Virus record (IMG/VR): IMGVR_UViG_3300037189_016115
Location: 1-44,334 of that record
From: a virus
Reading direction: 5' to 3' (one strand)
Length of the DNA: 44,334 nucleotides
The notes under the pieces were generated by a model that saw only the letters and a program-made list of their open reading frames with translations, made no database searches and was not told where the DNA came from. Positions 8,751 through 12,425 of this stretch are shown here, piece by piece. The translations under genes were made by a program, and so were the position numbers. Every line of letters begins with the position of its first letter. The first letter of the stretch is position 1.

Positions 8751-9239
8751 TTAGTAAACTAATATACATCTATCCATTCTCAATGAACAAGTGATAGATG
8801 CAATATCATCTCTTGAATAGTCTAGTTCATTAAAGTTTAAGTCGGTGATAAAAGTACCTTGAAGTATCCATTTTTCAACCACAACCCCCGTTGGGTCTAA
8901 CATTTCTAATTCAATGTCTTTTTTATAACCAGCGGCATAACCCATACGACCTGTAACTGATTCTGCGTGTAAACGGAACCACTCCATTAATGCCTGAGCG
9001 GCTGAAGGTCCAATTGGGTCTTTGAAGGTTACTCTTATTTCGTTCCATTCAAATCTACCAGCAACATATGTTGATGTGTTGATAAACGGAATCGCAACTG
9101 AATTAATTTTTGCACTTGGTCTAGCACTTGAGGTTACATACCATTCGTTGATACCCAATGATGAGGGGAATCTTAATATGAATCGGTTAACTCTCTTCGG
9201 TTCGTAAGGAACCGGCATTTTCATTAATAAATCTGCCAT
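8751..9239 (-). CDS. 19: Tail tube protein gp19
   Basis: This 162-residue protein has the length of T4 gp19 (163 residues) and matches the phage tail-tube family. Recognisable stretches are the N-terminal PYEPKRVNRFILRFPSSLGI, the middle SARPSAKINSVAIPFINT followed by STYVAGRFEWNEIRVTFKDP, and the C-terminal FITDLNFNELDYSRDDIASI. Hexameric rings of gp19 stack to form the inner tube through which DNA passes, inside the gp18 sheath. The gene lies directly downstream of the sheath gene, as in T4, but is separated from it by a 330-bp spacer containing a terminator, a promoter motif and a parS-like palindrome, so the tube gene is probably transcribed on its own. A terminator follows it. Confidence 0.9.
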   Translation of the reverse strand: MADLLMKMPVPYEPKRVNRFILRFPSSLGINEWYVTSSARPSAKINSVAIPFINTSTYVAGRFEWNEIRVTFKDPIGPSAAQALMEWFRLHAESVTGRMGYAAGYKKDIELEMLDPTGVVVEKWILQGTFITDLNFNELDYSRDDIASITCSLRMDRCILVY

Positions 9240-9280
9240 GTCAATATTTGTTTTTTATTTTTTTTATTGTTAATCTTTCT

Positions 9281-9288
9281 TATAAATA
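9281..9288 (-). promoter_or_regulatory. Candidate late promoter motif TATTTATA
   Basis: The coding strand reads AGGATATTTATAAGAAAG, 41 nt before the ATG of the tube gene. Because a terminator ends the sheath transcript upstream, a separate promoter is needed here, and this is the best candidate. Confidence 0.5.
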
Positions 9289-9363
9289 TCCTGTATCTGA
9301 AAAAACAAAAAAAATCTTGTTCATCCCTTGATTATGTCAAAATAATTTCGTATTTTTTCCATA

Positions 9364-9439
9364 CTAGTACTAGATGCTAGTAAATATAGAACTAGATTAA
9401 ATAAACTAGAATAACTAGAAGCAAATAAACTAGAACTAG
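9364..9439. repeat. Cluster of CTAG / ACTAGAA motifs
   Basis: CTAG occurs eight times in 76 bp, starting at 9364, 9370, 9377, 9392, 9406, 9415, 9430 and 9436. Several copies are part of a longer form ACTAGAA or AACTAGA. The spacing is irregular, so this is not a simple tandem repeat and not a CRISPR. It could be an array of protein-binding sites or a replication-related iteron-like region; the function is unknown. Confidence 0.6.
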
Positions 9440-9520
9440 AATACTGGTGCATATACTGGGTAATTTATAATTTTATTTTTTTTATATTTTTAGTATTTCC
9501 TTATGGAACATCTAATTATT

Positions 9521-9538
9521 ATGTTCCACGTGGAACAT
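9521..9538. promoter_or_regulatory. parS: parS-like 18-bp perfect palindrome
   Basis: The sequence ATGTTCCACGTGGAACAT is a perfect palindrome. Its 16-bp core TGTTCCACGTGGAACA matches chromosomal parS, the ParB/Spo0J binding site: the Bacillus form is TGTTTCACGTGAAACA, and forms with CC/GG at the variable positions are well known in proteobacteria. An extra half site GGAACAT occurs at about 9505-9511. No ParA or ParB gene is visible in this window, so a ParB from the host or from elsewhere in the phage genome would have to bind it. It could instead be a regulatory operator or a transcript hairpin. Confidence 0.6.
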
Positions 9539-9544
9539 AAAATA

Positions 9545-9562
9545 GGGAGGGTTTCCCCTCCC
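9545..9562 (-). terminator. Rho-independent terminator after sheath gene
   Basis: On the minus strand GGGAGGG-GAAA-CCCTCCC forms a perfect 7-bp GC stem with a GAAA tetraloop, followed by TATTTTAT. It lies just after the stop of the gp18 gene (9570) and would uncouple sheath and tube transcription. Confidence 0.8.
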
Positions 9563-9569
9563 CTTTTTA

Positions 9570-12425
9570 TTAGATATTGTCAAATGATGCTCCTGTTGGT
9601 GTGATTATGAACTCAACATCAATGAATTCAAGAGCTCTTGTTGGTTTAATATAAATTTTACCTCTCAAAGTATTAGCGTCAATGTCCTCAGGGTCGTTTG
9701 AAACCGTTACACGGAATTCATATAAACCTCTTTCTCTCTTGATTGCGTCTAATATTGGGTTTACCAATCTCAAGAACTCATTACGAACTTGTTCATCGTT
9801 TTGTTCAAATAGTAATCTAACTGCCACCGCTGAAATCAATTTTCTTGCTCTCAACAACAATCTTCTTACGTTAATTCTATCCAATGCTGATTCACGAACT
9901 TGAAGAGTTTTATTACCCCAAATTATTGTTCCTGTATCTGCGAATGTTGCGATAGGGTTAATTCGAGCTTTGTATAGGTCATCTCTTTCATCCAAAGTTA
10001 ATTTCTTGAAAGCTTTGATAGAGTTAACCAAACCTCTTGAGTAACCCGCTACTGCGAACCAAGGGAAGGATACGTTATCTGTTAATGCAATATTTCTTAA
10101 TACTTCACCTGTTGGTGGAAGATATAGTTGTACTGCGTTATCCACGTCTCTAACTTGAATCCAAGGCCAGTATGTTGCTGAATAGTTACTATCAATCGCA
10201 ACTCCGTCCAATGCGTCTATAATTTCGTCAGAAGTACCATAGTTTGGTGGTGATATCACATAAAGTGAATCCGCTCTGTCTTCTTCAATCATATCAATTG
10301 CGTATGATGTTAAAGAACTATGGTCGTAGAAGTTAATACCCGGTGTTGAGAATATATTGATGTCAACCGCCTCAGGGTTTGCAAAAGTGTCAATACCTCG
10401 AGTATAAGCGTAGTAGTCAGAGTTTCCTGATACCGTACTAAACACCCCTCCGTTTGTGGTATTACCACTTGTGTAGGTAGTTTTACCAAAGATATAACCA
10501 TCACCGTAAGTTCTTACGTTTCTGTAGATATCCCATCCATCAAATCCACCACCTGCGGCGAATGTGAATTTACGGTAGTTGATGTTTGTTAAAACGTTGT
10601 TTGCTCCACCTGTTTGACCTTCTAAATCATATGATGTAGTTAAGAAGGTAGTACCTGTGATAGTAGATGCGTTTGTTGATAAGTGGAAACCTTTAGTTGT
10701 TCCCGCAGCTCCTGTTCCTTTGAATTTAAATAAATCCCTATCGTATGTTGATTTATTAACTGGACTTGATAAACCAAAGTAAACCTTTCTCACTTTATCT
10801 CCTGAAGATAAAATAGGTGTTCCGTCCGCTTCGTATCCTGTTGTATCACCAGCGTCATAGAATTCTGTTTTATACATTACTGAACCTAAAGTTTTAGTTC
10901 CAAATGATGTGTTGTTTACAAATCCTTTGAAACCACCAGGGTATGCATCAATCGGGTGGTCATTCGCCATCGATAACATAATGTATCTTGAACGTAATTC
11001 GTATTCACCATCAGATGTACCAACTTTTTTAGCTACATAACCAGGTAGGTCAGGATTCATATTACATCTTGAATATTTTTCAAGAACCACAATATTGTCG
11101 TCAGTATCATTGAAGTCACGAACAATTAAGTCGAAGTCACCAGTGTTTACATCTATATTGATGATTGAAACTTTTACTTCAAAGTTTGCACTTTCACCAT
11201 CAGATACGGTGATAACATCAAATAAATCATCAACCTCACCACCTCTAACTTCAGAAACAACAGTTGGTGTCATTGGTGTATCCCATGAGGTTAAGAAGTT
11301 GTTACCTTCTGTTTCATATACTTCAGTTAAACTTAAACCTCTAATGTATCCTTGTTCATATGCTCTTACGAGATAATTTGGATATGATTCATAAACATAA
11401 ATTGGAACTTCACTTTTTAGTTTGTCATAAACATCAACCCCAAATACTTTAGTTACATATTTTGAAGATGTGGTATCCATACTACAAGTGAATGACTTAG
11501 CACCACTTGTTGAACCTGTAACACCTACGGTAAACTCAGCTAATGGGTTTGTGGTGATACCTGTTCCTGTAATTTGGAAATTAACGTCTGTGGTTGTTTC
11601 TAAATTTAATGTTTGACCATTATAAGAACCTCTTGGTCTAAACGCTAAAACTATTTGTCCATCGTATGCAGTATTCAATGTACCGTTATATGTGTATTTG
11701 GTTACATCGAATCTACTTGTACCACTATTGTAAACAAATAAGTAAGAATAAACTTCTGAACCACTTGTGTTACAAAGTACGTTGTACCATTCTTTGTTAT
11801 TGTTGTTACTTGCGTTATCTAAACCTGTCAAAGGTGAAATTTCTTCAATTGATGCCGTTTGACCACTTGTTCCTGATGTTGGTACTTCACCCATAACAAA
11901 CCATTGACCATGGTTTGCAGAAGTGTTACCACTAAAATTCGCAACAATGTAGTCGGTGATGTAGTTACCATCAACTGATATCTTATTAGATAATTCACTA
12001 TAAATTGTACTTGCAGTAATTGTAGTAGTTGTTGCTGACATTGTTAATCCGGTGGTTGTTCCACTGAATGTACCTAAAGTCACACCACCTATTGTTTGTA
12101 TACCGAATGTTTTAACTGGTTTGTAACCTGTTAAACCTAAAATTCTTGTAACAAATAATTGATTAGATTCTTCTAAATAAGATTTTGCGAAGTACGGTAA
12201 TTCATATCTTGGGTTGTTATTGTTGTCCTTTAGTGGACTTGTTCCCCCAAAATATGACTTGAATTCGTCAAAATTTGTTATTAATACAGGTTCAAAAGCG
12301 GGACCTTTTAAGGTTTCACCCACCAAACCTAACGTGCTCACCCCAACACTTTGTGCTACGAATGTTAAGTCTTTTTCAGATGTATATACACCCGGAGATA
12401 CAAATACTCTATTTGAATTTGCCAT
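9570..12425 (-). CDS. 18: Contractile tail sheath protein gp18
   Basis: The N-terminus NRVFVSPGVYTSEKDLTFVA is the typical sheath start. The C-terminal third carries the conserved core: NIALTDNVSFPWFAVAGYSR, then KARINPIATFADTGTIIWGN, then DRINVRRLLLRARKLISAVA and KIYIKPTRALEFIDVEFIIT. Six-fold rings of this protein wrap the gp19 tube and contract to drive it through the envelope. At 951 residues it is nearly 300 longer than T4 gp18 (659). The extra sequence lies mainly between residues about 100 and 650, rich in Thr, Gly, Ser and Asn, and probably forms surface-exposed domains. The gene has a near-match late motif 38 nt upstream and a strong terminator downstream. Confidence 0.9.
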   Translation of the reverse strand: MANSNRVFVSPGVYTSEKDLTFVAQSVGVSTLGLVGETLKGPAFEPVLITNFDEFKSYFGGTSPLKDNNNNPRYELPYFAKSYLEESNQLFVTRILGLTGYKPVKTFGIQTIGGVTLGTFSGTTTGLTMSATTTTITASTIYSELSNKISVDGNYITDYIVANFSGNTSANHGQWFVMGEVPTSGTSGQTASIEEISPLTGLDNASNNNNKEWYNVLCNTSGSEVYSYLFVYNSGTSRFDVTKYTYNGTLNTAYDGQIVLAFRPRGSYNGQTLNLETTTDVNFQITGTGITTNPLAEFTVGVTGSTSGAKSFTCSMDTTSSKYVTKVFGVDVYDKLKSEVPIYVYESYPNYLVRAYEQGYIRGLSLTEVYETEGNNFLTSWDTPMTPTVVSEVRGGEVDDLFDVITVSDGESANFEVKVSIINIDVNTGDFDLIVRDFNDTDDNIVVLEKYSRCNMNPDLPGYVAKKVGTSDGEYELRSRYIMLSMANDHPIDAYPGGFKGFVNNTSFGTKTLGSVMYKTEFYDAGDTTGYEADGTPILSSGDKVRKVYFGLSSPVNKSTYDRDLFKFKGTGAAGTTKGFHLSTNASTITGTTFLTTSYDLEGQTGGANNVLTNINYRKFTFAAGGGFDGWDIYRNVRTYGDGYIFGKTTYTSGNTTNGGVFSTVSGNSDYYAYTRGIDTFANPEAVDINIFSTPGINFYDHSSLTSYAIDMIEEDRADSLYVISPPNYGTSDEIIDALDGVAIDSNYSATYWPWIQVRDVDNAVQLYLPPTGEVLRNIALTDNVSFPWFAVAGYSRGLVNSIKAFKKLTLDERDDLYKARINPIATFADTGTIIWGNKTLQVRESALDRINVRRLLLRARKLISAVAVRLLFEQNDEQVRNEFLRLVNPILDAIKRERGLYEFRVTVSNDPEDIDANTLRGKIYIKPTRALEFIDVEFIITPTGASFDNI

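Follow-up and report, generated by a model that had tools for sequence, protein, structure and literature searches.

Why would a phage with T4-like tail genes keep, between the genes for its tail sheath and its tail tube, a palindrome that reads like parS, the bacterial site at which the segregation protein ParB (Spo0J) nucleates? The window, meaning the whole stretch of DNA analyzed here, is a virus record of 44,334 bases, and a 232-kb relative (G001) stood in for the remaining genome. The initial annotation of the window reported a perfect 18-bp palindrome, ATGTTCCACGTGGAACAT, at positions 9521–9538 in a gene-free stretch between the two tail genes. Inspection of the sequence confirms both the letters and the coordinates and extends the perfect palindrome to 22 bp, and the placement is borne out by the list of open reading frames (ORFs) and by PHROGs matches. 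The locus comprises the following features.

8751–9239, minus strand: tail tube gene, 162 aa, the downstream neighbor (phrog_4542, 9.7e-25)
9363–9461, no strand: CTAG-rich array in the same spacer, with ATACTGGG at its end
9519–9540, no strand: 22-bp perfect palindrome TTATGTTCCACGTGGAACATAA, from the sequence
9522–9537, no strand: parS-like 16-mer TGTTCCACGTGGAACA with two intact half-sites, GTTCCAC and GTGGAAC
9544–9563, minus strand: intrinsic-terminator-like hairpin 3' of the sheath gene, from RNA folding, also readable on the plus strand (9545–9562)
9570–12425, minus strand: tail sheath gene, 951 aa, the upstream neighbor (phrog_23, 5.2e-60)

The sheath-tube spacer (9240–9569) is 330 bp long and contains no gene, and the palindrome lies directly past the terminator-like hairpin of the sheath gene. 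No ORF of 60 or more amino acids runs over the palindrome, and a coding role, such as the one described below for the end of YbeY, was set aside. The additional half-site that the initial annotation placed near 9505 does not hold up. GGAACAT is indeed present there, but it is preceded by AT rather than GT and so reads ATGGAAC instead of the half-parS GTGGAAC; because of this, and because the surrounding stretch differs in the next relatives, we do not count it. The same spacer also holds 8 of the 27 CTAGs of the window. CTAGs average 7–8 per 320 nt in the spacers of relatives (range 0–22) versus about 0.2 elsewhere, the arrays are similar in relatives with and without the palindrome, and the densest CTAG cluster of G001 occurs at the same place.

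The 16-bp core is unique in the 44,334 bases at a tolerance of three mismatches. Dinucleotide shuffles yield 0.20 expected matches at that tolerance, so that an exact match by chance would be far rarer. The core matches the pattern of chromosomal-type parS sites, TGTTYCACGTGRAACA, exactly. As had been proposed, it is a known bacterial form: its letters are those given for the parS of Pseudomonas putida and P. aeruginosa in the table of PMC7022226.

A search of IMG/VR with the sheath protein returned at least 576 stretches encoding a relative, and we used the best 80, which are 68–100% identical. Four of these end too soon past the sheath gene; with the window added, the 76 that remain comprise 51 distinct spacers. 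A parS-like dyad, agreeing with TGTTYCACGTGRAACA at 13–16 of 16 positions, occurs in 31 of these 51 spacers from the best 80 of at least 576 stretches, at 32–67 nt from the sheath stop codon (at 83 nt in two cases), and each of the 31 retains at least one intact GTTYCAC half-site. One further spacer holds a decayed dyad (12 of 16 positions). The remaining 19 score no better than shuffles, at 10 of 16 positions or fewer. Three records of the phage collection that encode a related sheath, namely Flavobacterium phage immuto, Mel-JY01 and LR756508, lack any site at up to one mismatch. The initial annotation had named absence from close relatives as a point against a parS; the dyad is present in most of the distinct spacers, though missing or decayed in the other 20.

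Where the dyad occurs, it is conserved against its surroundings. Information per column, computed together with the pairing counts from 30 distinct 86-mers anchored on the dyad, averages 1.61 bits within it, whereas the 30 preceding bases average 0.64 and the 40 following bases 0.69; a kept dyad amid varying flanks is the pattern that had been suggested as a check. The terminator stems vary among relatives and the bases past the dyad drift. Nine letters are invariant in the 30 rows (A0, G2, T3, T4, C6, G11, A13, A14 and C15); positions 5 and 12 vary between C and T and between G and A, respectively, and columns 9, 10 and 16 are the most variable. The pairs 7/10, 8/9 and 1/16 (the outermost) are complementary in only 19, 16 and 12 of the 30 rows, and a dyad without these pairs falls short of a full palindrome. 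Central variants among the relatives include CACATG, CACAAG, CACGAG, CACGCG and CACGGG, which may make poor parS sites for some ParBs. Half-site binding is described as robust in P. aeruginosa and as not observed for B. subtilis ParB in PMC10419367; since ParBs differ in this way, how well divergent relatives with a single intact half-site are bound may depend on the ParB of the host.

Could the conserved object be an RNA rather than a DNA site? A minus-strand RNA spanning 9516–9543 folds into the palindrome hairpin (−10.4 kcal/mol, z −4.45) right behind the terminator-like hairpin, as would be expected of a second hairpin that stabilizes or ends the sheath transcript. In the minimum-energy fold of a longer minus-strand RNA, however, the right arm pairs instead with the segment near 9505, and neither strand has a T run after the palindrome. 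The pair at positions 5/12 is C-G in 18 of the 30 rows, T-G in 7, C-A in 4 and T-A in 1. A stem with T-G would survive in the transcript of just one strand, and a stem with C-A in that of just the opposite strand; the full set of pairs is hence not accounted for by an RNA from either strand alone. The three parS forms found in bacterial genomes under the pattern TGTTYCACGTGRAACA differ at exactly these two positions. We therefore rejected the hairpin as the conserved object; that the palindrome acts only as an mRNA hairpin, which the initial annotation named as a refuting outcome, is unlikely, since stem pairing is not kept on the transcribed strand across relatives. The palindrome is also located in terminal repeats of other phages, as described below, and an RNA element is accordingly a very improbable explanation.

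We next consider how often the site recurs within a genome. Among 14 relative contigs of 58 to 245 kb searched at up to two mismatches, 12 carry one site beside the sheath gene, either exact or with two mismatches, and two (G008 and G011) have no site within two mismatches. Two of the contigs (G009 and G012) have a second site elsewhere, with one mismatch, and the close relatives G001 and G003–G006 share a two-mismatch match elsewhere, TGTTGCACCTGAAACA. These counts bear on the idea that the dyad is an operator which merely resembles parS and binds a DNA-binding protein of the phage, for example a regulator of tube-gene expression. Many relatives do have a TATAAAA- or TATAAT-like stretch about 6–7 nt past the dyad, each of five copies on an unrelated contig (L105) is followed by a similar promoter-like stretch, and dyad symmetry is lower in divergent relatives. 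Against this, a single sheath-side site in 12 of 14 large relatives, with a second site in only two, is not one site per promoter, and the dyad at up to two mismatches is not repeated at several promoters in these 14 contigs. The spacing to the AT-rich stretch is not kept in the closest relatives, and the same 16-mer is common to unrelated phages. An element of T4-type late promoters was also considered: TATAAATA occurs 44 times in the 232-kb relative, in which the exact dyad occurs once. An operator of this kind is, in our estimation, quite unlikely.

If the palindrome is a parS, does the phage encode the partner? No ParA or ParB was found among the 18 larger ORFs of the window scanned against PHROGs, in line with the initial annotation. 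Searches of relatives return the same answer: ParB_N (PF02195) matches none of the 14 relative contigs, which are possibly fragments, and no protein exceeds the TIGR00180 cut-off in 11 phage records (three relatives and eight named phages). The sole sub-threshold TIGR00180 match in those 11 records, a 251-aa protein of G001 (16.7 bits, below the cut-off), was considered as a possible phage ParB and is kept as a loose end; in Pfam (E 0.001) it yields only a sub-threshold GmrSD_N match. This protein carries a DGQHR motif, and L477 985–1740 corresponds to about 166404–167159 of G001. Hence the ParB_N and TIGR00180 searches of relatives find no parB, and the PHROGs scan of the 18 larger window ORFs no parA or parB, in cis as in a phage-plasmid ParABS locus. 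Of the phage-plasmid state entertained in the initial annotation, the centromere-like palindrome is present and the cis-encoded ParB is lacking.

A ParB would then have to come from the host. In G001, a Shine-Dalgarno-like motif precedes 9 of 236 predicted genes versus 10 of 236 at a control position, and A is enriched at −3 and around −12 of translation starts. Such a start composition fits Bacteroidota. One of the better annotated matches to the sheath comes from Flavobacterium phage immuto, at 41% identity over only 29% of the protein. The host is thus presumably a Bacteroidota bacterium, an assignment that is provisional because it is drawn from translation-start composition. As further observations on G001, ARAGORN finds no tRNA, and the region 50001–70000 has one predicted gene start per 10 kb and a strong skew of C over G.

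The initial annotation had also proposed looking for the 16-mer and for ParB in the likely host, and both are found in the presumed host group. TGTTYCACGTGRAACA occurs in 90 of 100 genomes of the Flavobacterium filum family, a sample centered on G015, a genome itself found through the site, whereas the reversed pattern occurs in none of the 100; at the level of the phylum the figures are 87 of 118 and 1 of 118. Each genome has few copies, often separated by 35–65 bp or by about 1.9 kb. The F. filum sites are flanked by ybeY and mnmG, and in one sequence of this species (L246, 6676–6697) the palindrome encodes the MFHVEH end of YbeY, ahead of mnmG. In the single-contig 3.41-Mb genome G050, a pair of sites at 3,388,051 and 3,389,996 lies about 50 kb from the minimum of the cumulative GC skew near 3.34 Mb, as measured in this one genome from a sampled profile. 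Of the 10 family genomes with no exact match, 8 have a one-mismatch match, including paired sites of the form TGTTCCATGTGGAACA 37 bp apart and GGTTCCACGTGGAACA 1.9 kb apart; the changes are of the kinds seen in the phages (a central CATG, C at the end).

A ParB is encoded in all 15 presumed-host-group genomes tested, and in the one case examined for context the gene lies behind one read as parA. In all six ParBs compared, the DNA-binding domain contains VGK[KN]RST and MGHGRA and aligns with ParBs of solved structures. In Caulobacter ParB, parS is contacted by residues R173 and G201, which PMC7383237 describes as absolutely conserved among ParB proteins; the corresponding residues, located by means of the motifs GKxR and GHxRA at a spacing of 28, are kept in six of six. 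In one genome (G104), parB lies about 1 Mb from the parS-like sites.

The initial annotation remarked that T4-type phages are not known for parS. That frame proves too narrow: parS-type palindromes occur in many unrelated phages. In IMG/VR the exact 16-mer is present in at least 120 stretches, and a centre-swapped control, TGTTCCAGCTGGAACA, in 54, a complete count; because the target count is a lower bound, we compare the positions of sites with the control rather than totals. Among the matches listed, 57 of the 120 distinct target sites fall in no ORF of 100 or more amino acids, versus 3 of 43 distinct control sites. Restricted to contigs below 50% G+C, the sites outside such ORFs are 43 of 68 for the target (among the matches listed) and 3 of 40 for the control. 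A terminator-like hairpin lies within 60 nt of 14 of 127 target sites among the matches listed and of none of 54 control sites. The site is single-copy in 116 of the 120 listed stretches, which are stretches of up to 15 kb and not whole contigs. Two other arrangements were noted: L105 carries five exact copies between 4324 and 10457, those with the promoter-like stretches mentioned above, and one viral group (L049, L071, L099, L108 and L109) has TGTTCCACGTGGAACA and TGTTTCACGTGAAACA next to each other at a distance of about 8 bp.

Among 50,697 phage records, queries with the core only return TGTTCCACGTGGAACA in 58, TGTTTCACGTGAAACA in 286 and the mixed form TGTTTCACGTGGAACA in 147, counts that include RefSeq/GenBank duplicates and sister isolates and so are not independent events. 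The control palindromes TGTTCCAGCTGGAACA, TGATCCACGTGGATCA, TGTTTCAGCTGAAACA and TGATTCACGTGAATCA return 1, 0, 5 and 0 records, the five for TGTTTCAGCTGAAACA being Erwinia phages with the site in one gene. A 30-letter query with the window flanks gives 127 versus 10 records; since it mixes exact and partial matches, counts were taken from the core-only queries. Among the TGTTTCACGTGAAACA records, the names that lead are Listeria (87 of the 286), Microbacterium (49), Arthrobacter and Gordonia, and among those with TGTTTCACGTGGAACA, Pseudomonas, Arthrobacter and Bacillus. Site-bearing phages include isolates on Pseudomonas putida KT2440, a strain in which PMC7022226 lists parB as non-essential, and on Bacillus subtilis strains.

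With respect to genes, the 58 TGTTCCACGTGGAACA records divide into 28 with the site outside annotated genes, 21 inside and 9 unannotated. The 17 Pseudomonas records among them are mostly outside (14, with 2 inside and 1 unannotated); the ten Klebsiella phages have 8 inside and 2 unannotated, and these Klebsiella sites are perhaps due to chance. An assignment to the outside class can be weak, since another site of XD2 is surrounded by 2 kb in which its record annotates no gene. For TGTTTCACGTGAAACA, 60 of the 286 rows were listed, with 23 outside (one in a terminal repeat), 26 inside and 11 unannotated; for TGTTTCACGTGGAACA, 40 of the 147, with 13 outside (five in terminal repeats), 22 inside and 5 unannotated. 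With 26 of 49 and 22 of 35 annotated rows listed lying inside genes, an intergenic preference is not general. Individual sites are placed as follows.

phiPsa374: inside the 526-bp direct terminal repeat
psageK4: 107–125 of the record
Vibrio phage phi 3 (KP280063.1): left terminal repeat, between the A1 and A2 genes, near 2934
Vibrio phage phi 3 (KP280063.1): left terminal repeat, a mixed-form site at 821–836
Perkons: just before an antirestriction gene
vB_PpuM-Amme-3 (site at 60431–60446), Orchid and Dionysus: between genes
Listeria P100: overlapping the start of gp159

Sites at the termini would be well placed to act as infection begins. The excess of parS forms over control palindromes in phage records also weighs on the simplest alternative, namely that the palindrome has no selected function and is an accident or a relic. 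The 19 of 51 spacers that lack the dyad are what such a view would cite; the conservation of the dyad against the drift of its flanks and the excess over controls both count against it, and we consider it extremely improbable. The palindrome is thus unlikely to be mere chance or an RNA hairpin alone.

The reading we favor, and consider probable, is that the palindrome is a host-type parS of a Bacteroidota phage that loads host ParB onto the phage DNA in cis. It rests on the identity of the 16-mer with known parS, on the conservation of the dyad, on the usually single site per relative, on the lack of a recognizable ParB in the relatives searched, on the occurrence of the same type of site in the presumed hosts, and on the excess of parS palindromes over controls in phage records. 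The binding of ParB, its spreading, a benefit to the phage and the identity of the host are inferred. Host ParB, the product of host genes, would bind the site as a dimer, close as a CTP clamp and slide onto the adjoining phage DNA; via ParB, the phage genome would reach host ParA and SMC. The benefit in cis might be the positioning, segregation or compaction of phage DNA in an infected or carrier cell. These steps follow what is described of the CTP clamp, repeated loading, spreading, ParA and SMC recruitment in PMC12704722 and PMC10197239. The interpretation of the initial annotation stands as to parS identity, conservation, and sites and ParB in the presumed host group, and falls as to the extra half-site; ParB binding, spreading and the purposes it proposed are predictions.

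The same predicted binding of ParB would equally serve a decoy, in which replicated phage genomes draw host ParB away from the origin and thereby disturb host segregation or replication control. There is a precedent for such interference: parS mimics of SGI1 hijack and destabilize the parABS system of IncC plasmids, according to PMC10954446. One site per genome, however, is a weak sponge early in infection, and 116 of the 120 listed stretches (up to 15 kb) are single-copy; sites in terminal repeats, as in phiPsa374 and Vibrio phage phi 3, fit a role in cis at least equally well. Since the loading of clamps is repeated, a single loading site in each genome can suffice, which favors a benefit in cis over mere sequestration of ParB. 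Single copies and terminal-repeat positions incline us to cis, as a lean and not a demonstration, and we regard the decoy as unlikely, yet the strongest of the alternatives to loading in cis.

How does this putative site compare with known systems? Chromosomal parS, as tabulated for P. putida in PMC7022226 (TGTTCCACGTGGAACA), has the identical 16-mer, is palindromic and occurs in few copies per replicon; the window site differs in lying on a phage genome with no parB found alongside it, so that ParB would be needed from the host. SGI1 is likewise a mobile element with sites for the ParB of another replicon (PMC10954446), but it exploits a plasmid ParABS, whereas here a phage carrying T4-like tail genes would draw on the ParABS of the host chromosome. 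Engineered lambda-parS, used for imaging infection, shows that a parS on a phage genome gathers ParB; there the parS is engineered and CFP-ParB is supplied by the experimenters, as PMC13190303 describes, while the window site is natural and of host type. The partition loci of phage-plasmids (P1, N15 and cyanophage Mic1) share the centromere-like palindrome on phage DNA, and that of Mic1 is a different palindrome (PMC7156551). P1, N15 and Mic1 encode their own ParA and ParB.

In the open-access literature searched, we found no description of host-type parS sites in phages that lack parAB. What would be new here is therefore not the element, a parS of known kind, but its apparent borrowing by a phage. 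A site kept by many related viruses and present in unrelated ones suggests that phages borrow a segregation protein of their hosts. There is perhaps an even chance that this extends broadly, such that tailed and ssDNA phages of ParB-bearing bacteria widely carry a host-matched parS with no parAB, a 'borrowed centromere' that early in infection loads clamps of host ParB and, by way of these, SMC and ParA; the window would then represent a T4-like lineage of Bacteroidota phages that keeps this site between its sheath and tube genes. A parS palindrome in a metagenomic contig should be taken with caution as a mark of chromosomal origin. If ParB does load at these sites, phages would exploit or sabotage the chromosome segregation of their hosts by means of a 16-bp tag.
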